Below, piece after piece: positions 2,857 through 44,390 of a stretch of 64,000 nucleotides of DNA. The stretch's first letter is position 1. Each line of letters begins with the position of its first letter. Source of the DNA: Acidobacteriaceae bacterium (GTDB lineage: Bacteria; Acidobacteriota; Terriglobia; Terriglobales; Acidobacteriaceae); NCBI GenBank assembly GCA_027452245.1, contig DAIDGW010000005.1, forward strand, positions 1 to 64,000, in the 5' to 3' direction. A program made the position numbers and the translations under genes. The notes beneath the pieces were generated by a model. That model did no database searches and was not told the DNA's origin. It saw only the letters and a list, made by a program, of their open reading frames with translations.

Positions 2857-5558
2857 ATTTCGTGTGCAACACGTTTCCTGCCTCTACGCCGACCGGGCTG
2901 AATACCTATATCGTGAAGCTTGATGCCAATCTGACGTCGCGGCAAACGATGTTCGTGCGCGGCAACCTGCAGAACGATCACCTGGTTGCGGCGTCGGTGA
3001 CGGATGCGCCGCAATTCCAGGGCAGCCCGGCCAATATCACCCAGCAGGATAATGCCAAGGGAATTGCCGTCGGGCACGTGTGGACGATCAGCAACAGTAT
3101 GATCAACAACTTCCGTTATGGCTATGCGCGACCCAGCGTCAGTCTTTCGGGCCTGCAGACTCAGCCATACATCGAGTTCCGCGGCCTGGACAACGTGTCC
3201 GGACAAACGCCCACATCGTTTTTCCAAACGCCGGTGCACAATTTCATTGACGATGTGACCCGGATCAAGGGAGCCCACACCATCCAGTTTGGCGCGAACT
3301 GGCGGATCATTAACGACATTCGCTCCGACAACTCGCTTTCATTTCTGGGCGGATATACCAATCCATCGTGGCTGATTGGCTCGGGGTACACATGTGGAGC
3401 CTGCACACCGAACGGATTCAACCCCACGCAGATCGGCAAGCCAGCGGTGGGCGGTTCGAATACAAACGATACGGTCAACTTTGTTCAAGCATACGATCTG
3501 GCGGTCAGCGCCATGGCGGGCGTGATCTCAGAGGGATTCTCCGACTATAACCGGACGAAGACGGGATCTGTTCTGGGAGTCGGAGTGCCAGCATTTCGGC
3601 ATTTCAAATCGAACGAGTTCGAGACGTACCTGCAGGATGCGTGGCATGTGCGTCCGGACCTGACACTTACCTTTGGCGTGCGGTATACATTGCTGCAGCC
3701 TCCGTATGAAACCTCCGGAACTCAGGTGGGACCGACAAGCAGCATCAATAGCTGGTTCAACGACCGAGCGAATGCGATGTTGAATGGCCAGAGCTATGCG
3801 CCACTGATCACCTTCGGTCTTAACGGGCAGGCCAATGGCAAGGCCCCTTATTGGTCGTGGGACTACAAAGATATAGCCCCACGCCTTGCATTCGCCTGGG
3901 CGCCGAGCGGATCCGGAGGTAGCTGGTGGAGCCGCTTGTTGGGCAGCAGCGGTCAAACTTCCATTCGTGGCGGCTTCGGGATGTACTACGATCACTACGG
4001 CGAGGGAATCGTCAATTCGTTTGACCAGAATGGCTCATTCGGGCTAACAACCCAGCTCTCGAACCCGGCAGGCATACTGTCGGCTGGGGGCGGGGGAGGA
4101 AACCCGATTGCTCCGCGTTTTACAGGTTTGAATTCGGTCCCAAGCTCCGTGATTCTTCCGCCGCCCGCCGGAGGATTTCCGCAGACGCCCCCCTCTACTC
4201 TGAACACTGGTGGGTACGCAATCACCTGGGGCATGGACAACAAAATAAAGACCCCGTATTCAGAGGTATTCGATCTATCCATCACCCGTGAACTGCAGCG
4301 CGGGTTCGTCGTAGAAGCTTCATATATCGGCAGAATGGGACATCACCTGCTACAGGAGGAAGACCTGGCGATGCCGCTTGATCTGGTGGATCCAGCGTCG
4401 AAGATGAGCTACTTCCAGGCGGCGACGATGCTCTCGCAGGCCTACAACAAAGGAACGCCGATCAATAACCTGAAATCCATACCCTATTGGGAAAACCTGT
4501 TCCCCGCTGCCAAGGGGAACTTGGGATTTGGACCTCCGGGCAGCAGCGGCAATCTCGGTTGTGCCCCGGGAGACAGCGTCAATGGCAATTACACGGCCAC
4601 GCAAGCTGTGTATGACATGTGGAGTTGCTATGTGGGCAATGAAACTTCGGCGTTGTTCAACCTGGATGTTCCCGGCCTCTGCTATCCGGCCTGTTCCAAG
4701 CTGGGCCCGGATGCATACTTTGACTCACAATTCTCGTCTCTTTACGCATGGCGCAGTATCGGCGATTCGTCCTACAACGCACTGCAACTGATGCTGCGGC
4801 ACAAAGGGAACGGCCTGGATTTTGACCTGAATTACACCTATTCAAAATCGATCGACGTTGGATCGAACGCGGAACGAATTAACACGTTTCAAGGATTTGG
4901 CTTTGCCAGCCAAGTCATAAATTCATGGGCTCCGAATCAATTGCGCGCGGTGTCAGATTTCGATGCCACTCACCAATTGAATGCGAATTGGGTCTATGAG
5001 CTGCCAGTGGGTAAAGGGAAGTATTTTGCCAGCGGATTACATGGGGTCGGACAGGCCGTGTTCGGAGGATGGAGTCTGACTGGCATCCAGCGACTTTCCA
5101 GCGGCTATCCCTTCACGGTCGAACCGGGACTCGGATACTGGCCGACGAACTGGGAATTGACCTCAGCGGCGGTGATGCTGAAGGCTCCCAAGACGGGGGT
5201 TTATACGGATCCCAACGGCAATCCCAATGTGTTTAAGGGAAATCCCACGCAAATCGGTTCGCCGGGAAATTACTTCCGCTTCGCATATCCTGGGGAATCC
5301 GGCCAGAGAAACAACCTGCGTGGGCCGGGATTCTCCGAGACCGATGCCGGATTAGCCAAGTTGTGGAATGTGACGGAAGGTCAGGCTTTACGTTTCAGCT
5401 GGGAAGTGTTCAATCTATTCAACACTCCTAGTTTTGATGTGGGCCTATTGCAATATGGCGGGAACAACAGCATGACGACGGGATCGACGTTCGGCGAATT
5501 CCAGAAGACCATGGCTCCGCCGCGGGTGATGCAGTTCTCGTTGCGCTATTCGTTCTAG
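2805..5558 (+). CDS. TonB-dependent receptor, C-terminal beta-barrel part (frameshifted)
   Basis: Continuation of the Oar-like receptor begun at 1693, in the +3 frame. The ATG at 2805 is an internal Met of the intact protein (QQMFNQYPTPN), not a proven start. It encodes a roughly 900-residue outer-membrane beta-barrel with typical strand/turn signatures (LTLTFGVRYTLLQP, SIRGGFGMYYDHYGEG, VEASYIGRMGHHL) and the terminal strand MQFSLRYSF ending in the aromatic residue required for BAM recognition. Together the two parts give about 1288 residues, normal for this family. A strong hairpin terminator follows at 5580. Both halves are otherwise undamaged, which argues for a sequencing error or a very recent mutation. 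Confidence 0.85.
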   Translation: MFNQYPTPNATNCGDGLNFVCNTFPASTPTGLNTYIVKLDANLTSRQTMFVRGNLQNDHLVAASVTDAPQFQGSPANITQQDNAKGIAVGHVWTISNSMINNFRYGYARPSVSLSGLQTQPYIEFRGLDNVSGQTPTSFFQTPVHNFIDDVTRIKGAHTIQFGANWRIINDIRSDNSLSFLGGYTNPSWLIGSGYTCGACTPNGFNPTQIGKPAVGGSNTNDTVNFVQAYDLAVSAMAGVISEGFSDYNRTKTGSVLGVGVPAFRHFKSNEFETYLQDAWHVRPDLTLTFGVRYTLLQPPYETSGTQVGPTSSINSWFNDRANAMLNGQSYAPLITFGLNGQANGKAPYWSWDYKDIAPRLAFAWAPSGSGGSWWSRLLGSSGQTSIRGGFGMYYDHYGEGIVNSFDQNGSFGLTTQLSNPAGILSAGGGGGNPIAPRFTGLNSVPSSVILPPPAGGFPQTPPSTLNTGGYAITWGMDNKIKTPYSEVFDLSITRELQRGFVVEASYIGRMGHHLLQEEDLAMPLDLVDPASKMSYFQAATMLSQAYNKGTPINNLKSIPYWENLFPAAKGNLGFGPPGSSGNLGCAPGDSVNGNYTATQAVYDMWSCYVGNETSALFNLDVPGLCYPACSKLGPDAYFDSQFSSLYAWRSIGDSSYNALQLMLRHKGNGLDFDLNYTYSKSIDVGSNAERINTFQGFGFASQVINSWAPNQLRAVSDFDATHQLNANWVYELPVGKGKYFASGLHGVGQAVFGGWSLTGIQRLSSGYPFTVEPGLGYWPTNWELTSAAVMLKAPKTGVYTDPNGNPNVFKGNPTQIGSPGNYFRFAYPGESGQRNNLRGPGFSETDAGLAKLWNVTEGQALRFSWEVFNLFNTPSFDVGLLQYGGNNSMTTGSTFGEFQKTMAPPRVMQFSLRYSF

Positions 5559-37823: not shown

Positions 37824-37831
37824 CTTAGCGT
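37824..37831. repeat. Target-site duplication, left copy (CTTAGCGT)
   Basis: The 8 bases CTTAGCGT directly abut the left terminal inverted repeat and recur directly after the right one at 42264-42271. Eight bases is the duplication size known for IS1595-family insertions. Confidence 0.93.
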
Positions 37832-37854
37832 GGCATAAATATACTTGACTAATC
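37832..37854 (+). repeat. Left terminal inverted repeat, 23 bp
   Basis: Begins GGCATAAATATACTTGAC and is identical over all 23 bases to the reverse complement of 42241-42263. A small palindrome (ACTAAT-CGTG-ATTAGT) continues inward from its end toward the transposase start and may be a transposase or promoter site. Confidence 0.95.
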
Positions 37855-37882
37855 GTGATTAGTTTAGTACAAATATCATGTT

Positions 37883-38887
37883 ATGCAAGAGCCAACGACA
37901 TTTCAAGAGGCGATCCTGTATTTTGCAGACCGGAACCGCTGCATAGACTACCTTGCACTCCGACGCTGGCCGGACGGCAAGCCCGTGTGTCCCGTTTGCG
38001 GACGTAATGACGCGAGTTTTCTAGAGCACCAGGGCCGCTGGCAGTGCAAAAGCGTCCACCATCACCGCCAGTTCTCCGTGAAGGTGGGAACGGTGATGGA
38101 AGATTCGGCCATACCGCTGGAGAAGTGGCTCCCTGCGATCTGGGCTATTGTGAATGACAAAAACGGAATCAGTTCCTGGGAATTGCATCGGGCGCTGGGG
38201 ATAACGCAGAAAACCGCGTGGTTTATGCTTCACAGAATCAGGCTTGGGATGTCGCTGCAAAATAAGAAATTCGGAACTCGCAAAAAGATGGGCGGTCCCG
38301 AGGGTGGCCCTGTTGAAGTGGACGAGACATTCGTGGGCGGACGAAAAAAGAATATGCACGCGGACAAGAAGATCCGATATGAAGCTCGCGGCGGAGCCTT
38401 CGGCAAAGCTGTCGTGCAAGGAATCCTAGATCGGACAACACGCGAAGTTCGCGCCAAGGTTGTTCCTGACATCAAGCGCGACACCCTACAGGCCGAAGTG
38501 CTCAAGAACGTCAAATACGGAACCGCTGTCTACTCCGACGACGCTGTGGGATACGACCGCATGAACTGGTGGTACGTCCATGAGGTCGTGAACCACTCGG
38601 AGGAGTACGTTCGCGGACAGGTCCACACAAACGGCCTAGAGAATTTCTGGAGCCTGCTCAAGAGAACGTTGAACGGGACGTATGTGGCAGTTGAGCCGTT
38701 CCACCTAGACCGATACATCGACGAACAGATTTTCCGTTATAACAATCGCGCAACGAAGGAGAACCCACTGACCGACGCAGACCGATTCAGCTTGGCGTTG
38801 ACGCAGATCGCAAACAAGCGACTGACGTATGCTGAATTGACCGGGAAAACTGCCGAGGGAGCCTCGCCAACGCCGGAGCCGTTCTAA
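37883..38887 (+). CDS. IS1595-family transposase (ISXO2-like)
   Basis: A 334-residue DDE-type transposase. The N-terminal zinc-ribbon has CPVCGR at about 36-41 and WQCKSVHHHRQFSVKVGTVM. The ISXO2-like catalytic domain has VDETFVGGRKK (Asp near 147), VYSDDAVGYD (Asp near 219) and the acidic Glu near 253 in HTNGLENFWSLLK. All catalytic residues look intact. It starts 28 bp inside the left inverted repeat. None of its 26 valines uses the GTA codon, notable given the UAC-anticodon tRNA carried by the same element. The stop overlaps the convergent 63-residue ORF by 4 bp. Confidence 0.95.
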   Translation: MQEPTTFQEAILYFADRNRCIDYLALRRWPDGKPVCPVCGRNDASFLEHQGRWQCKSVHHHRQFSVKVGTVMEDSAIPLEKWLPAIWAIVNDKNGISSWELHRALGITQKTAWFMLHRIRLGMSLQNKKFGTRKKMGGPEGGPVEVDETFVGGRKKNMHADKKIRYEARGGAFGKAVVQGILDRTTREVRAKVVPDIKRDTLQAEVLKNVKYGTAVYSDDAVGYDRMNWWYVHEVVNHSEEYVRGQVHTNGLENFWSLLKRTLNGTYVAVEPFHLDRYIDEQIFRYNNRATKENPLTDADRFSLALTQIANKRLTYAELTGKTAEGASPTPEPF

Positions 38888-39075
38888 TCCGCGGCGTTTG
38901 AAGCGTGGTCGGAAACCGAAGATGAGTGAGCGGGCCGTTTCTTAGCCCGCTTTTTTGCTGCTTTCTCACGCTTCTCTTTTTCGAGCGCTTTTTTGATTTC
39001 GGAGTGTGGGACGCGCATTAACGATTCCACCGCCTCATTGAAGTTCTCGAATGGCGTTCGCGATTTGGGCATCAT
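38884..39075 (-). CDS. Small lysine-rich transposon-associated protein, 63 aa
   Basis: The N-terminal motif FENFNEAVESLMRVPHSEIKKALEKEKREK is spread over about residues 9-38, followed by a basic KKRAKKRPAHSS tail. I recall similar short proteins with an F-x-x-F/VPHxEIK pattern being common near insertion sequences, but the function is unknown. The start may be either of two adjacent ATG codons. It lies 6 bp downstream of the zinc-ribbon ORF on the same strand (an operon) and overlaps the transposase stop by 4 bp in antisense. Confidence 0.65.
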   Translation of the reverse strand: MMPKSRTPFENFNEAVESLMRVPHSEIKKALEKEKREKAAKKRAKKRPAHSSSVSDHASNAAD

Positions 39076-39081
39076 CAGCGG

Positions 39082-39351
39082 CTACTCCACCTGTTTGATA
39101 TCGAATCGGAAAAGATGCGCCTGGTTCTCGGCTTGCTCCTCCGCAGTCTTTCCCATGCGATGAAATCTTGCCAGTCCAGCAAGGGCAGATTTTATGTTGT
39201 CATTCATTTCCATACCGCAGGAGCTACAGTTCTCAGGGATACGCGCTGTTTCGATATTAAGGATGAGCGCAGTTCCACATCCGTCGCAGGTCAAGGTGAC
39301 GTTGGCTAGATCCTCCCTGTGCGCTATGACTGCTCGATAGGCTGACATCAT
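39082..39351 (-). CDS. Small zinc-ribbon protein, 89 aa
   Basis: A cargo gene of the transposon. Two Cys pairs, CDGC (about 23-26) and CSSC (about 42-45), are spaced as a zinc ribbon, followed by a helical C-terminal half (ALAGLARFHRMGKTAEEQAENQ). No enzymatic motif. It is first in a two-gene minus-strand unit with the 63-residue ORF. A nucleic-acid- or protein-binding accessory role is plausible but unproven. Confidence 0.65.
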   Translation of the reverse strand: MMSAYRAVIAHREDLANVTLTCDGCGTALILNIETARIPENCSSCGMEMNDNIKSALAGLARFHRMGKTAEEQAENQAHLFRFDIKQVE

Positions 39352-39451
39352 AAAAACGCCCGCTTTCAGGCTTGACTATAGCATAGCGTGATATTTCATT
39401 AGTTATTCTTGGACTCCCGCCTATCATGTGGCGGGTACACCCGCACGTTTG

Positions 39452-39772
39452 CTACTTAAACAGTGTCTCAATTATGGCTACCAGAACATACATAAGTACA
39501 ATCACTACAATGCCTATGGCCCATGACGATATCTTCCTCCATACGCGACCGTCAAACCGCTTTAAATGCGCTCGCGTATGAACTAGGTCGGATCTCAATT
39601 CGGTTATTCGTGTTCTGAATCGTGGATCGCACGACAAATTACGGTTAGTGGCCTCTTCCAATACTGCCGTGTACGCAGATTTCGTAAGACTCCGACTGTC
39701 CGCAACTATACGCAACAGTTCCTCGTCTCCCAGAGTTGCGTAATGAGCCTTAAGCTGCTGTGTGTCCATCAA
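39452..39772 (-). CDS. Small tail-anchored-like membrane protein, 106 aa
   Basis: A cargo gene. The N-terminal helical region (LKAHYATLGDEELLRIVADS, then AYTAVLEEATNRNL) resembles a short repeat seen in uncharacterised membrane proteins. A single C-terminal membrane segment (IGIVVIVLMYVLVAIIETLF, about 85-104) would leave almost nothing outside. On my reading the membrane segment uses three GTA valine codons, relevant to the UAC tRNA on this element. Function unknown. A hairpin CCCGCC/GGCGGG at about 39418-39437 lies just beyond its stop. Confidence 0.6.
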   Translation of the reverse strand: MMDTQQLKAHYATLGDEELLRIVADSRSLTKSAYTAVLEEATNRNLSCDPRFRTRITELRSDLVHTRAHLKRFDGRVWRKISSWAIGIVVIVLMYVLVAIIETLFK

Positions 39773-39973
39773 TCGCGATCTCGCGCCGATCTATAAGGAA
39801 CGATTATGCAACAATTCTGCCGGTCCGACAGTAGAACATTTATCCGGCGATGAAGGCCGGTTTGAGTGATCGCGTCTGGACCGTTTCGGAACGGTCGCAC
39901 GCATGGCAGGGATCAGCAAGCTACCGTATGCGAAATTAATCGAACAGAACACCTTTACGCCGTTTGTTCGGCC

Positions 39974-40534
39974 TTAAGCGACAGCTCCGAGCGGCGCTGC
40001 CTCCACACGCCACCGGCGGCGACTCTTGGCTCCAAGCCACGTGCCTAGTATGCGCTCGGAGTCACGACTCCCGTGCAACGCTAAAAGCCACTGCTCAACT
40101 TCGTGCGTATGATCCAAGGCCTCTTTCAACTTCTTGTCGCCCGACAAAATGCCATATACAAATCGTACCAATTTGTCTCGTCCCTCAGACAACGGCAACG
40201 TTGTGCTAGATTCTATTCCTGAGTATCTTTCGGGCGTGACTCCTATCAAAGCAGAAAACTCTTTTGACGGCTTACCCAACCGTTTACGCAAATAGCGCAC
40301 CTGTTCCCCCGTTAAGGGCGATGTCTTCGTCACAAGCGTACGAGCTATAGACGCGAGCAACTGATTCAGCGAGGGAATGTCAGCCGCCTGTTTTTTGCAA
40401 CGTGAGCACACCCAATACTTAACCCCCACAAGGAACACGTTTCCAAGTCCAGAGCCGACATAGTGGTATGGCTGTTCTGCCGTCGAAACGTATTCAACCG
40501 CAGACGCGTCACAGTCGTGTTCGTGAATGTGCAT
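39974..40534 (-). CDS. MqsA-like zinc/HTH antitoxin (putative)
   Basis: A 186-residue protein. The N-terminal metal-binding region contains HIHEHDCD and VCSRCKKQ (CxxC near 43-46). An XRE-type helix-turn-helix follows at about 75-115 (LTGEQVRYLRKRLGKPSKEF, GVTPERYSGIES), then a helical C-terminal extension. The zinc-plus-XRE layout is that of MqsA/YgiT-type antitoxins. It sits 6 bp downstream of a DUF4258-like ORF on the same strand, giving the toxin-first order typical of mqsRA. It probably autoregulates through its HTH. Two nearby valines (KLVRFVYG) use GTA codons. Confidence 0.7.
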   Translation of the reverse strand: MHIHEHDCDASAVEYVSTAEQPYHYVGSGLGNVFLVGVKYWVCSRCKKQAADIPSLNQLLASIARTLVTKTSPLTGEQVRYLRKRLGKPSKEFSALIGVTPERYSGIESSTTLPLSEGRDKLVRFVYGILSGDKKLKEALDHTHEVEQWLLALHGSRDSERILGTWLGAKSRRRWRVEAAPLGAVA

Positions 40535-40540
40535 AATCCC

Positions 40541-40849
40541 TCAATACTTCGTTAAAATTTTCAAAGTTGCCGTAGCGGTGTCTGGCTTGACGAGTAAATG
40601 GAGTTCCACAAGATCCACATCGACCGTGCGGATAAGATACTTGAATCCTCCAGTATTCGACGGTTCGGGAGGGCGTTCCAATGTCCAGTCTCTGCGACTG
40701 AGACCATACTGAATGTCCTCGTCGCTAATGTTTCGCTCAGCGCGCTCAACCTCAGAGTGGAAGCTCTCGCGCACGTACCCCTTCTCTAGGGCTTTGGCAA
40801 CGAACTGCCGCAACCCAGCCTCGGACATGGGCTTAATCAAACTTAACAT
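40541..40849 (-). CDS. DUF4258-like putative toxin
   Basis: A 102-residue ORF with the DUF4258-type order of elements: ESFHSEVERAERNISDEDIQYGL (about 29-51, an H-x-x-x-R-x-x-R-x-I-S-x-x-D pattern), then strands FKYLIRTVDVDLVELHLLV and ATLKILTKY. DUF4258 proteins are often the toxin partners of zinc/HTH antitoxins and are thought to be RNase-like. The start is uncertain: 40849 lies inside an operator-like palindrome, so the ATG at 40828 (MSEAGLRQF) may be the true start. Paired with the antitoxin gene 6 bp downstream. Confidence 0.65.
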   Translation of the reverse strand: MLSLIKPMSEAGLRQFVAKALEKGYVRESFHSEVERAERNISDEDIQYGLSRRDWTLERPPEPSNTGGFKYLIRTVDVDLVELHLLVKPDTATATLKILTKY

Positions 40850-40861
40850 AATTTTAAGTTT
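40839..40861. promoter_or_regulatory. Palindromic operator candidate of the toxin-antitoxin pair
   Basis: Arms AAACTTA (40839-40845) and TAAGTTT (40855-40861) are perfect inverted repeats with a 9-nt spacer. A consensus -35 TTGACA (minus strand, 40866-40861) overlaps the outer arm. This is the expected position for autorepression by the HTH antitoxin. Confidence 0.5.
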
Positions 40862-40933
40862 GTCAAGTGAAAAAGCAAGTAAATTCCGGGGTTACTTTAG
40901 GGAAACGCAGGAATACTACCAGAAATGAAAGGC

Positions 40934-41074
40934 TTAGCGGAGTCTCTGTTCAGCGTCTTTGTGCGGTAGTGATTTAATCAACTTGTCTAGGACCGCGTCA
41001 AATGCGGCCTTTTCCACCTTGACCGACTTTTTGGGCGTTTTCTTCTTCACAGCTTTCCTTTTCTTTTGTGCCAT
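40934..41074 (-). CDS. Very small lysine-rich protein, 46 aa
   Basis: An ORF starting MAQKKRKAVKKKTPKKS, then an acidic/helical half FDAVLDKLIKSLPHKD and a stop at 40934. The basic N-terminus and helical C-terminus mirror, in reversed order, the 63-residue ORF at the other end of the element. It lies between the toxin-antitoxin pair and the tRNA. Coding status rests only on the clean frame and composition; a nucleic-acid-binding role would be a guess. Confidence 0.45.
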   Translation of the reverse strand: MAQKKRKAVKKKTPKKSVKVEKAAFDAVLDKLIKSLPHKDAEQRLR

Positions 41075-41155
41075 TTGTTTGCAAAATCCACAAGGTTTTG
41101 CACAGAAATGCACCTACATCCACAGGCGCTTGTAGGGCTAGTATTCGGGACGGCG

Positions 41156-41241
41156 GGAGGCTGACTGGTCGGTACCAGGAGCGGTCTTACAAACCGCAGT
41201 TCCCCGACAGGAACGGTGTTCGACTCACCCAGCCTCCGCCA
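41156..41241 (+). tRNA. Non-canonical (allo-)tRNA, serine-type body with UAC anticodon
   Basis: An 86-nt tRNA gene with encoded CCA. The acceptor stem is a perfect 8 bp (41156-41163 with 41230-41237), then discriminator G (41238) and CCA (41239-41241). The D arm is 5 bp (41165-41169/41174-41178) with loop CGGT. The anticodon stem GCGGT/ACCGC has loop CTTACAA, anticodon TAC at 41188-41190 (reads GUA valine codons). The variable arm is long (41199-41214, 5-bp stem). The T stem has only 4 bp (GGTG/CACC) around the canonical TTCGACT loop. A standard 7/5 fold would leave a C-C mismatch and an unpaired G at position 8; the 8/4 fold pairs everything. Long variable arm plus G73 are seryl-tRNA-synthetase identity features, while the anticodon is that of valine. 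The 8/4 shape matches the class called allo-tRNAs. It lies in transposon cargo. Confidence 0.85.
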
Positions 41242-41318
41242 TCCTTCGCACTACGTTATACCACCAAACTCAACCGATGGCACAAACGTGTGCTTCCCAG
41301 ACAGATCCTCGATTCCCG

Positions 41319-42191
41319 TCAGGCTGCACCTGCCTTGACTTTCTCAACGTGTTCCCTGATTTCCTCCAGCGTCTTCCTGTTAAAGCTACGAGTATGAATT
41401 CCAAAACTTTTGAAATCTATAAGCGCTGTGAATGACTTCCGATTCGCACGCGCAACCCTATGCGCTTGAGCTGCCTTAAAAACCTCGAATGCCACCAGGT
41501 CAGCAGGTTGCAAGGCAATACAATCCTCCCAACCTAACGGCGCAATTGTCGTGAAGTAATGGCGGTGATCGAAGTTTGGGTCGGCCATGTAGTTGTTGAA
41601 CGCATTCAATATGGTCGCGTCATGGTCCGTAGTTCTGTCATGGAAGAGTGTGATCTTAACTTCGACGCCGGGGGCGTTCTCTTTATGGTCTTGTCCAATC
41701 GTCCACAGGATGAACTTAGTCAGAAAGTCATAACCAGAGCCTAGGCGGTCATCTGCCCATTCAGGGAATACCGCCATTAAATCATCGAGGCTCACGTCGT
41801 ATCCAACCGTGTGCATTCCGCCGCGAAGTCGCTTGATGATGCCAAATAACCCGATGACAAATTCGTCCCGCTCGTCGTGCGTCCAACCATCAAATTCATT
41901 GCGGCGACCGCTACAATCAGCGGCATGATAACGGGAAATCAGCGGCCTTCCAGTCCGCTTTAGTTCCTTGTTTTTGGCTGCAAGATGGAGCTTCCACAAT
42001 CGCTCCATCTCAAACCATACTTTCCCCTTCGCAACGATGCAGGACATTGAAAATAAATCTTGCTTGGCACCGTCGTAGCTCTCGTCCATGTATCCGGTCA
42101 TCAACACAAAGGTGCCCTTACAAGCTCCAAGCGGGCTGAATGGTTCCCAAAACTCTTGGAGTGGTAAGTATTTCGCTAACGGGCTTTGCAC
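41319..42191 (-). CDS. DUF3800 domain protein
   Basis: A cargo protein of up to 290 residues; the probable start is the ATG at 42101 (MTGYMDESYDG), giving 260. DUF3800 features are present: an opening strand with DES near the N-terminus, the middle HAADCSGRRNEFDGW, KITLFHDRTTDHD, and the C-terminal ALQPADLVAFEVFKA. The acidic residues at these positions suggest an RNase H-like nuclease fold, which is inferred, not shown. Such genes are frequent on mobile elements and defence islands. It starts close to the right end of the transposon. One GTA codon lies at 42018-42020. Confidence 0.75.
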   Translation of the reverse strand: MQSPLAKYLPLQEFWEPFSPLGACKGTFVLMTGYMDESYDGAKQDLFSMSCIVAKGKVWFEMERLWKLHLAAKNKELKRTGRPLISRYHAADCSGRRNEFDGWTHDERDEFVIGLFGIIKRLRGGMHTVGYDVSLDDLMAVFPEWADDRLGSGYDFLTKFILWTIGQDHKENAPGVEVKITLFHDRTTDHDATILNAFNNYMADPNFDHRHYFTTIAPLGWEDCIALQPADLVAFEVFKAAQAHRVARANRKSFTALIDFKSFGIHTRSFNRKTLEEIREHVEKVKAGAA

Positions 42192-42240
42192 ACAGAAACC
42201 TCAACTTTCTGTGGCTTAAACAGGCTCAACCAATCGGAGT

Positions 42241-42263
42241 GATTAGTCAAGTATATTTATGCC
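42241..42263 (-). repeat. Right terminal inverted repeat, 23 bp
   Basis: The exact reverse complement of 37832-37854 (begins GATTAGTCAAGTATATTT). It defines the right boundary of the transposon. Confidence 0.95.
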
Positions 42264-42271
42264 CTTAGCGT
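42264..42271. repeat. Target-site duplication, right copy (CTTAGCGT)
   Basis: Direct repeat of 37824-37831, immediately outside the right inverted repeat. Confidence 0.93.
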
Positions 42272-42418
42272 CATATTAGCGAACTAATCCATGGCGCTCA
42301 ATAATTTACGGGTAAAATCCTCAGCCGCAAGGACTTACGTGCCGTCCCACAGCGCACGGGCTACCAGAATGATCGGAGACGGAGACTGTGGATGTCAAGG
42401 ATTGTGGTCACATCGTGC

Positions 42419-42957
42419 TTACTCGGAATTTACGATGCCCGGAACGGGTGCCGAGGAGACGTTCCATTCGGGGAGAGCCTTCACAACGCTAACGGTTTCG
42501 AGGCTGACCGTAATGACCTGGCCGATGAGGCGGAGGATGTAAGTGGGATCGTCTTGGCGGTCGGGATCGTTGGTGATGCCGCTACGCTTGTCGGTTGAGA
42601 CCCGATATTGAGCTTCATCTTTTCGACGCGATAGTCGAGTTTTTCGCCTTTATTCTCGACTTTGGTCAGCGGATATTCGGGCTGCTGTTCATAGTGGACG
42701 TGGATTTCGGCGAGGCGCCGGCCGGCCTTGACGAAGGCGCGGAAGATGTCGAGGCCGGTGGTGGACCCGGTTGCCTGCGAGCTTCGCTCTCCGGCAACGG
42801 CCTCCGGCAGAGTGGAGTTGTTTTCTTTCTTGTTGCTTCCCCCGGGCTTACGCCCGGGGCTGTGATCTGCCGCCCCTCCGGGGCTGTCGTCGGCAGATGG
42901 CGGCGTCTGGTTAGCACTGACGAACGGGATGCGCGGCAATTTGCGGCCGAGACTAAC
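42419..42957 (-). pseudogene. Remnant of a type ISP-like restriction-modification enzyme C-terminus
   Basis: Minus-strand fragments of one protein. One frame begins RKLPRIPFV at about 42945, has a low-complexity insertion, then DIFRAFVKAGRRLAEIHVHYE and KLDYRVEKMKL. The text then jumps to another frame at about 42600, reading YRVSTDKRSGITNDPDR, DDPTYILRLIGQVITVSLET and a stop at 42419. I recall this order from the C-terminal specificity region of large type ISP restriction-modification proteins, but about 35-40 residues between MKL and YRV are missing and the whole methylase/helicase part is absent. It is therefore a decayed fragment, truncated at its 5' side against the next gene. Confidence 0.7.
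42840..42884. repeat. GC-rich double-hairpin element inside the R-M remnant
   Basis: Two adjacent hairpins: CCCCGGGC-TTAC-GCCCGGGG (42840-42859) and GCCCC-TCC-GGGGC (42872-42884). They fall in the low-complexity stretch that interrupts the otherwise recognisable restriction-enzyme remnant, so this looks like an inserted short palindromic repeat. Only one copy occurs in this window. Confidence 0.55.
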
Positions 42958-42962
42958 GCACG

Positions 42963-44390
42963 CTACGACTGCTTGGCGGACTCGCGTTTCAAGGCGCGCT
43001 GCAGCGTCTGGTCGAGAGCGGCCTTGGTCTTTTCGTACTCCTGCTGGGAAATGTGTCCCTGCTTGTGTTCGACCTCGAGCTGGAAGAGTTCTTCTTTCAA
43101 GCCCTCAAGCAACATCGAGGCCGAGGATCGCGGCGCTTCTGCGGACGGCACCGGAGCAGGCGTGAGGCGGGCCGGTGTTGGTTCGCGGAAATCGTAGTCG
43201 GGATCGCTTTCTTCGATGACGCGGGGCTTGCTGCCTGCTCCGGCGCGGACGGCCGCTTGCTGGCGCGATGCGACATAGACTCCGCCGGCGGCGAGGGCGA
43301 GGGCGAATCCGCCGAGAATCCACCAGCGATAGCGTTGCAGGGGATCAGGAGCATCAATCGGAGGGCCGAGGCCTCCGCCGGGACGGTCATCAGTGCTCTG
43401 CGCGGCCGGTGCCGAGCCATCGTTGGGAGCGCCGCCATTTGCCTGACGCTCCTGCAGGGTTCCTTCGCCGGTGACTTTGAAGGCGAGCGGCTGTCCTGTG
43501 GTTGTACCGGAGATGACTTGCACATTGGCATCCGGCTGCTGCGGATCGTTCATGGCCTTGTAACCGCTTCCCGGCGCGGCTGCGAACTGCATCGACTTCG
43601 GCAGGATGGCGACGAAGTGCTGCAAGGGATAGAGCGACTTGGGATCGACATTGGCGCTGCCGGTATAAGGCAGTTGATAAGCGACTTGAAACTGGGTGGT
43701 TCCGGGACGCAGCGGGAAGGGAAAGGCGTAGCGGGTCTTGTCGCCGGTTTCCGCGACGGGCATGGAGTTGATGGGCTGTCCGCCTTCGGTCATGGCGGAA
43801 CCTTGAATCACCTGCGCGCCTTCAGGCACGAAAAACTCCAGGTTGCGCTCGTTCTCCTGTGTGCGTGGCGGCTTCGAGGTGTTTTGTATGGCGAACATGC
43901 GCTCGATTTCGAGTTGTCCCTGTTCGGCCTGAATGCGCATGATATCGGCAACCACTTCGATGCCTTCGATCTTCTTTCCCACGTCGTAAACTTGAACATC
44001 GACGGAGGTCGTTCCCGGGGGCGCCATGCGGTGATAGGTCACGCCCTCATGGATGGCGCGAATCAGGTGCGGGGCTTGCGGATCGTCGAGTTTGAAGCTG
44101 AAGTTTCCCTTGGCGTCGGCTTTGGTGGTGGCCGCGACTTCCATGCCCTGGCCGAGTTTGATGAGTACAACATCGTCGCCCGCGGCGGGTTTGCCCGTAG
44201 TGGCGTTCTTCACGTTGCCGGTAAGAGTCTGGGCGGCGCAAAAAGAGACGGCGAAGACAAGGACGGCAAGCGCGGAGATCGTTTTGCGCAAAGTCGTGTT
44301 TAAAGAGCCGCGGCCATTGTTGCGGCGCGGAGCCGGGATGCGGACACAGTTGACGTTCTCGAGCATTGGCATCTTTTCTACTGTCATCAA
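42963..44390 (-). CDS. Membrane-anchored protein with carboxypeptidase-regulatory-like N-terminal domain
   Basis: Up to 475 residues. A signal peptide near 36-54 (ISALAVLVFAVSFCAAQ) is followed by a carboxypeptidase-regulatory/SpaA-like beta domain (LTGNVKNATTGKPAAGDDVVL, GNFSFKLDD), a large extracytoplasmic beta-rich region (about 140-330), a Pro/Gly linker, one membrane segment (WWILGGFALALAAGGVYVA, about 355-373) and a cytoplasmic tail ending in a coiled coil (LKEELFQLEVEHKQGHISQQ, then EYEKTKAAL). The ending resembles SHOCT-like motifs. The start may be an internal Met. The function is unknown; a stalk-like envelope protein is likely. Confidence 0.7.
   Translation of the reverse strand: MMTVEKMPMLENVNCVRIPAPRRNNGRGSLNTTLRKTISALAVLVFAVSFCAAQTLTGNVKNATTGKPAAGDDVVLIKLGQGMEVAATTKADAKGNFSFKLDDPQAPHLIRAIHEGVTYHRMAPPGTTSVDVQVYDVGKKIEGIEVVADIMRIQAEQGQLEIERMFAIQNTSKPPRTQENERNLEFFVPEGAQVIQGSAMTEGGQPINSMPVAETGDKTRYAFPFPLRPGTTQFQVAYQLPYTGSANVDPKSLYPLQHFVAILPKSMQFAAAPGSGYKAMNDPQQPDANVQVISGTTTGQPLAFKVTGEGTLQERQANGGAPNDGSAPAAQSTDDRPGGGLGPPIDAPDPLQRYRWWILGGFALALAAGGVYVASRQQAAVRAGAGSKPRVIEESDPDYDFREPTPARLTPAPVPSAEAPRSSASMLLEGLKEELFQLEVEHKQGHISQQEYEKTKAALDQTLQRALKRESAKQS

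Follow-up and report, generated by a model that had tools for sequence, protein, structure and literature searches.

Serine-type tRNA genes form a family at IS1595 elements of one bacterial family, and in relatives of the element described here the codon cognate to the cargo tRNA stands at fixed positions of the transposase gene, with its synonyms excluded. This coupling is the new part of the present analysis; the tRNA of the window (the whole 64-kb stretch of DNA that was analyzed) counts as a new allo-tRNA, and the element around it is an IS1595 transposon. No published report of a coupling between a cargo tRNA and transposase codons was found among the titles and abstract openings of the literature matches listed, a scope outside which Mukai et al. 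(2017) falls. The overall explanation, which we consider probable, is that an intact serine-type 8/4 allo-tRNA travels as IS1595 cargo, coupled to the transposase in relatives and an orphan in the window.

The allo-tRNA gene of the window and its transposon

ARAGORN called a single tRNA gene in the window, at positions 41156 to 41241 of the forward strand, with the anticodon tac (UAC). According to a pairing script, the transcript has an 8-bp acceptor stem, a 5-bp D stem closed by the 4-nt loop CGGU, a 5-bp anticodon stem, a 5-bp variable arm, and a 4-bp T stem. All 27 of 27 pairs in this 8/4 form are Watson-Crick, and RNAfold returns the identical cloverleaf as its minimum-energy structure (−39.9 kcal/mol). 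A loose 8/4 descriptor that left the variable arm and the loop letters free had one match in the window (both strands) and likewise one among ten mononucleotide-shuffled sequences (one strand, 640 kb in all), so the 8/4 shape by itself is weak evidence. The tRNA identity is instead settled by the full pairing, the T loop UUCGACU, U33, G73, and the encoded CCA, together with conservation: in an alignment with two relatives, 81 of 81 pair cells were kept and 8 pairs were changed on both sides, which was reached by 0 of 500 shuffles.

A 12-bp acceptor branch split 8/4, a long D stem with a 4-nt loop, and a long variable arm place the gene among the 8/4 allo-tRNAs. Long variable arms and G73 are serine identity features, whereas tRNA-Sec has an 8/5 branch and a UCA anticodon. 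The Rfam tRNA-Sec model (RF01852), searched against positions 40000 to 43000, matched positions 41155 to 41238 at 47.3 bits against a cut-off of 47, and the molecule does share with tRNA-Sec the long acceptor, the long D stem with a 4-nt loop, and the long variable arm; tRNA-Sec was nevertheless rejected, as the branch is 8/4 rather than 8/5 and the anticodon is UAC rather than UCA. The same model matched in 395 of 396 genomes of the phylum and thus separates nothing. Nor does the gene have the 7/5 branch, short variable loop, and A73 of a canonical tRNA-Val. The preliminary description had read a perfectly paired 8/4 allo-tRNA with anticodon UAC, serine-type features, and a C-C mismatch at the fifth T pair under a 7/5 reading; the ARAGORN call, the pairing, and the conserved pair cells bear out the first of these, and the other two can be read from the sequence. 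Its alternative of a dead remnant found no support, the stems being perfect and kept in close relatives.

The tRNA lies within a complete IS1595-family element of 4,432 bp (positions 37832 to 42263). The element is flanked by an 8-bp target-site duplication, CTTAGCGT, whose left (37824 to 37831) and right (42264 to 42271) copies match at 8 of 8 positions, and it is bounded by 23-nt terminal inverted repeats at 37832 to 37854 (forward strand) and 42241 to 42263 (reverse strand) that are 100% complementary. An open frame on the forward strand at 37883 to 38887 encodes a 334-aa transposase with Zn ribbon and DDE_Tnp_IS1595 domains (Pfam PF12762, 7.8e-39; PF12760, 4.2e-9). The proposal that the tRNA is cargo of an IS1595-type element therefore stands on the Pfam domains, the perfect ends, and the duplication. 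While these properties are those of the IS1595 family, the element differs from it in carrying a tRNA and other cargo, and its relatives differ in the coupling of the tRNA to transposase codons.

Six cargo open reading frames (ORFs) lie on the reverse strand. No Pfam match over the cut-off was found for o1 (39082 to 39351, 89 aa). The 106-aa product of o2 (39452 to 39772) has, by eye, a membrane-helix-like stretch with several GTA and ATA codons. A helix-turn-helix protein of 186 aa is encoded by o3 (39974 to 40534; HTH_3 just below cut-off, 21.8 bits versus 23), and o4 (40541 to 40849, 102 aa) is DUF4258-like, also below cut-off (21.9 bits versus 25); o3 and o4 are perhaps a toxin-antitoxin pair. 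The small, basic 46-aa product of o5 (40934 to 41074) resembles ORFs in two UAU elements by tblastn (64% over 39 aa in L116 and 55% over 33 aa in L115). Finally, o6 (41319 to 42191, 290 aa) has no Pfam match, and a 60% identical protein is encoded in L050, a decayed relative of the window element in an Acidobacteriaceae assembly whose transposase is 74% identical at the DNA level. A block comprising o1 to o5 and the tRNA (39076 to 41318, boundaries approximate) is missing from L050, and it may have been inserted in the window element or lost from L050, either being possible. A nucleotide search of the element's own genome found no second copy, and a search of the element against plasmids gave no match.

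Related tRNAs at IS1595 elements

A covariance model of the window tRNA alone returned 2 clear relatives in 40 genomes (82 and 79 bits, the next match scoring 48), both with the anticodon UAU. Searching 61 genomes with the tRNA at the nucleotide level (E up to 1) yielded, apart from the window itself, nothing beyond short or weak matches. A model built on the three tRNAs matched in 2 of 396 phylum-wide genomes under stricter Infernal filters, namely, the window's own genome and one of the same family. In 300 genomes of the bacterial family, it gave 27 matches in 26 genomes (E up to 1e-9), the window included. Together with the two relatives found at first and a GCG tRNA on the chromosome of G012, these matches make up 30 tRNA loci. 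An IS1595 transposase was present within 5 kb at 19 of the 30 and at none of the other 11. Paired ends with an exact 8/8 duplication and the tRNA inside were found at 9 of the 19 loci with such a transposase, and at 8 of 15 in another count.

ARAGORN called 20 of the 30 tRNAs: 16 as UAU, the window as UAC, one as GCA (in G604), one as UUA (L125), and one as GCG. Several of the 10 that were not called have weakened anticodon stems around a TTATA loop. Further loci among the matches listed include UAU tRNAs of 9/3 or ordinary 7/5 shape. A long variable arm characterizes the tRNAs of the family, with G73 in nearly all of them. By script, 35 of 41 tRNAs had G directly following the acceptor stem, with the end misplaced by the script and G read by eye in L174, L175, L278, L281, and L284, and with L130 ambiguous. 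The preliminary description had suggested a search for copies of the tRNA body with other anticodons, and such relatives exist, mostly UAU and at IS1595 elements. The closest bodies found were L115 (93% over 83 nt, UAU) and L116 (86% over 113 nt, loop read as UAU).

Several features accompany these loci. At L114 (G604:C9), a body 84% identical to the window tRNA has the anticodon GCA (Cys) and CCA, and no IS1595 transposase lies within 5 kb of it. Picked by eye, a conserved RNA structure of about 110 nt lies just 5′ of the allo-tRNA at 10 of the 30 loci (L112, L117, L118, L127, L129, L132, L133, L134, L083, and L084; for example, L084 at about 3455 to 3575). Its main helix has 12 pairs, 11 of them with two-sided changes and 3 of 120 cells broken, and TCACC with GGTGA may form a pseudoknot by eye; L083 and L084 gave no Rfam match at E up to 3, and no such RNA was seen before the window tRNA. 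A second tRNA-like gene of about 75 nt, Ala-type or with an odd anticodon, adjoins the UAU tRNA in four elements (L174:4211-4285, L175:4181-4256, L276:4206-4279, and L284:4229-4301). The tRNA loci L119, L120, L122, L124, and L134, at which no IS1595 transposase lies within 5 kb, have in common an antisense ORF of 92 to 103 aa, placed about 110 bases after the tRNA start in four of them; L119, L124, and L134 also have, by eye, a different transposase-like gene. Between transposase and tRNA, L128, L130, and L136 share two toxin-antitoxin-like ORFs, which we take to be HigB-like and XRE-type. A class II tRNA that appears Leu-like by eye but has the anticodon GTC (Asp) occurs at L222:6576-6661, in the stretch around an IS1595 transposase.

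Transposase codons coupled to the cargo anticodon

In aligned transposases of these elements, ATA codons concentrate in the same few columns and ATC and ATT do not. Among 18 transposases there were 299 same-column ATA pairs, compared to a shuffle mean of 49 and a maximum of 88 (5,000 trials with Ile codons reassigned), and ATA shared a column with ATC or ATT 5 times versus 406 expected. The alignment was then searched against 300 genomes of the family, and the best 60 further loci among the matches listed were added. Five key columns (91, 202, 426, 459, and 467) were used; they had been picked on the first set, and the first counts are therefore not blind. The enlarged set holds 27 UAU elements, 18 called UAU by ARAGORN and 9 with the anticodon read by eye as UAU (L116, L127, L128, L129, L135, L136, L168, L178, and L125, the last called UUA by ARAGORN).

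Among the matches listed, the 27 UAU elements had 569 same-column ATA pairs versus 102 expected (z 32, with the next codon at 6.0) in a test restricted to transposase pairs less than 70% identical, and ATA shared columns with its synonyms 14 times versus 819 expected. Codons neighboring the ATA sites vary synonymously; ATA does not. At least two key columns carried ATA in 26 of 27 UAU elements versus 1 of the 39 transposases that lack such a tRNA, whereas ATC or ATT stood at key columns in 0 of 27 versus 21 of 40 tRNA-less transposases (among the matches listed). With only the ARAGORN-called UAU elements of that set, all 18 of 18 had ATA at at least two key columns (z 23). ATA was kept at column 91 in 4 of the 39 tRNA-less transposases among these matches, and one tRNA-less locus, L177, kept two ATA codons. 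ARAGORN found tRNAs, possibly outside the element ends, in the stretches of four of the 39 (L201, Glu; L212, Ser-ACT; L217, Val; L222, Asp-GTC).

Left out of the coupling counts were L170, L176, L179, L180, and L197, whose contigs end 7 to 1,610 bases after the transposase, as well as L195 (two stops), xL050, and xL051 (stops). Of these, L170, L176, L179, and L180 have ATA at at least two key columns. Stop-codon readthrough in the transposases was considered and rejected: L172, L187, L188, L190, and eight more have their in-frame stops in a single last column, which makes these gene ends, and L195 is a broken copy.

A sister clade shows the same relation with another codon. Elements in six genomes (G540, G509, G030, G005, G600, and G516) carry a class II tRNA with the anticodon UAA, of 7/5 shape by our own reading. 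In 6 of 6 UAA elements, and in none of the others among the matches listed, TTA occupies columns 91 and 467, which hold ATA in UAU elements and lie in the motifs MNLxDV (91) and VSxKHL (467). Each UAA-clade transposase gene has only two or three TTA codons. A seventh transposase of this clade, at a contig end (L197, above), has TTA at both columns too, and in the transposase tree the seven members form one clade. Exact duplications enclose both tRNA and transposase in 2 of the 6 elements (L189 and L191). The tree also holds four tRNA-less lineages near or among the UAU elements (L184/L185, L187/L188/L190, L172, and L182/L183), and ATA at column 467 is absent from all four. L184 and L185 are 98% identical, complete elements with exact duplications and no tRNA.

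For an out-of-sample test, the prediction was fixed beforehand, 398 genomes of the family were searched, and 12 new transposases were taken. A UAU tRNA lay near 7 of the 12, called by ARAGORN in 5 and by the model in 2, with the anticodons of L277 and L281 read by eye. ATA stood at at least two key columns in 6 of these 7 elements, and ATC or ATT in 0 of 7. The exception, L284, has one ATA at the key columns and five in all, so the prediction for every element failed once. The single assessable new tRNA-less element, L286, has no ATA. Not counted were L279, L282, and L283, whose contigs end 1,182 to 1,621 bases past the gene, and L287, which has one stop; each of the four has ATA at at least two key columns. 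Because certain new rows closely resemble earlier ones (L276 is 97% identical to L130 and L277 is 97% identical to L083), the test is not fully independent.

The window copy looks like an orphan by these sequence comparisons. Its transposase belongs to another subfamily, with P at column 467, and has no ATA, TTA, or GTA at any of the five key columns; GTA accounts for 0 of its 26 Val codons. In o2, o3, and o6, GTA falls in hydrophobic stretches and appears valine-like by eye. The search of the genome turned up four further IS1595 transposases, none with GTA at the coupled columns (placed approximately). We therefore rejected GUA recoding for the window, and the suggestion that this copy places serine at GUA valine codons is not supported. 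The wider idea of a mobile agent touching the code is supported in the relatives, where cargo tRNA and transposase gene show codon-anticodon coupling, but not in the window copy, which offers no GTA in its transposase.

Decoding and possible roles

Because the tRNAs look serine-type, AUA and UUA may be read as serine at the coupled sites; this we infer from the tRNA, and the protein sequences do not settle the residue. A column profile assigned control codons correctly (ATC and ATT to Ile, AGC to Ser, and GTA to Val), and it gave Leu for TTA in UAU elements, Ile for ATA in UAA elements, and the normal residues for both in tRNA-less elements. For ATA in UAU elements, Ala ranked first, Ser fifth, and Ile tenth, with Ala, Gln, Arg, Thr, and Ser above Ile. 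In a sequence-weighted profile, Ser and Ile were equal for ATA (−21.2 and −21.0), behind Ala and Val, and the profile for TTA in the UAA group gave equal values for Leu and Ser (−4.7 and −4.8), behind Ala. A nearest-neighbor test over all ATA sites favored Ile and Val, an outcome driven by columns 91 and 459, where one or the other of these residues stands in tRNA-less relatives. With columns 91, 459, and 467 removed, the order was Ala, Thr, Ser, and then Val, with Ile behind. Recoding of whole elements was rejected: 17 ATA sites in six cargo families, two of them mostly at loci without an IS1595 transposase, ranged from mixed to Ile-like, three families being clearly hydrophobic, which argues for site-specific use in one gene and not for a full private code.

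In the mechanism that we propose, the element's tRNA would be charged by SerRS and would decode the cognate AUA or UUA codons of the transposase gene. A proper transposase would then depend on the tRNA, and this dependence would keep the two together like lock and key. A UAU ancestor with its neighbor gene o5 may have moved into an L050-type element with an uncoupled transposase, and its anticodon would have changed to UAC after capture; the resulting orphan could at most misread GUA at a low level. In its full form, the proposal is of a private sense-codon assignment in an acidobacterial IS1595 transposase, in which AUA (UUA in the sister clade) would mean Ser at two to five fixed sites, the transposase would be locked to the tRNA, the code would switch with the anticodon, and the window would be a hybrid with a captured tRNA changed to UAC. 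We hold this full form to be evenly balanced between right and wrong.

The strongest competitor is rare-codon supply, in which the tRNA would only set the reading speed of two to five AUA or UUA codons, one of them near the start, and so tune transposase dose, with the amino acid hardly mattering. Column 91, the fourth residue of MNLxDV, is P, R, C, Q, A, V, L, or I in relatives, a tolerance suggesting that tRNA dependence itself is selected there; yet wherever the residue would read as Ile or Leu, each anticodon group uses one fixed codon, and most of the closest tRNA-less relatives have Ile at this column, both of which fit rate control. At ATA columns 375, 426, 440, and 486, however, the residues of relatives are S, T, A, K, D, or E, a pattern that points away from Ile, and we lean somewhat against rate control while treating it as possible. 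The residues of relatives bear likewise on the idea that Ser in place of Ile or Ala weakens the transposase, the tRNA limiting its own element. Although Ile, Val, or Ala is possible at the sites in tRNA-less relatives, Ser or Thr stands in relatives at several of the variable ATA columns, where Ser would thus be expected to do no harm, and such self-restraint appears improbable. Shared descent, chance, or a DNA-level motif fixing ATA is barely credible: the transposases are related and near copies have codons in common, but the synonymous variation beside the invariant ATA, the ceiling of z 6.0 for other codons under the same descent, and TTA at both sites in the UAA clade all speak against it.

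Two further alternatives concern the tRNA more than the codons. A role outside decoding, such as signaling RNase P processing or giving a preceding RNA a structured 3′ end, would suit the RNA upstream of some of the tRNAs and the weakened anticodon stems; it leaves the codon-anticodon match unexplained, the upstream RNA is not seen in the window, and we judge such a role quite improbable. The window tRNA could also be charged by ValRS through A35 and C36 and serve as a spare valine tRNA. The anticodon UAC fits valine identity, and cargo GTA behaves as Val by eye, but the long variable arm and G73 point to serine and the host genome already has its own tRNA-Val genes with UAC, GAC, and CAC, so that we consider valine charging rather unlikely.

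Phages reassign stop codons with their own suppressor tRNAs, and here too a mobile element's tRNA would read its own genes differently from the host. Unlike the phage case, the transposon would use a sense codon at a few fixed sites of one gene. Genes have also been engineered to need a particular code (code-locking, as described in the available text of PMC12269064), and against that the transposon case would be natural and confined to one gene. The available text of PMC7609411 reports allo-tRNAs from Acidobacteria, Clostridia, and Proteobacteria, with odd anticodons covering 35 of 64 codons, and states that with those of Silvibacterium bohemicum, CUC and UUA are decoded as Ser in Escherichia coli. 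The tRNAs described here share with them the 8/4 or 9/3 acceptor branch, the long variable arm, and the odd anticodons. They differ in that sister elements have serine-like tRNAs of 7/5 shape at this place, and in that the cognate codons occur in the transposase gene of the very element that carries the tRNA; that text names no natural message for allo-tRNAs, and the coupling supplies a candidate, the transposase gene of the carrying element. If the tRNA inserts Ser, the element would hold a sense-codon lock that is both natural and mobile, within a host whose use of these codons is otherwise normal, and a few constructs would suffice to test what allo-tRNAs do. A rule of code change would follow as well, in which anticodon and codons differ together (UAU with AUA, and UAA with UUA).

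Two other RNA features were observed apart from the transposon. An Acido-Lenti-1 RNA (Rfam RF01687, 55.9 bits) lies at positions 42840 to 42885 of the window, outside the element. Elsewhere in the same genome (locus L258, G000:C244:1151-9823), ARAGORN called 26 tRNA genes clustered in about 9 kb, including Ile-TAT and Val-TAC, an arrangement that resembles a phage or plasmid tRNA array.
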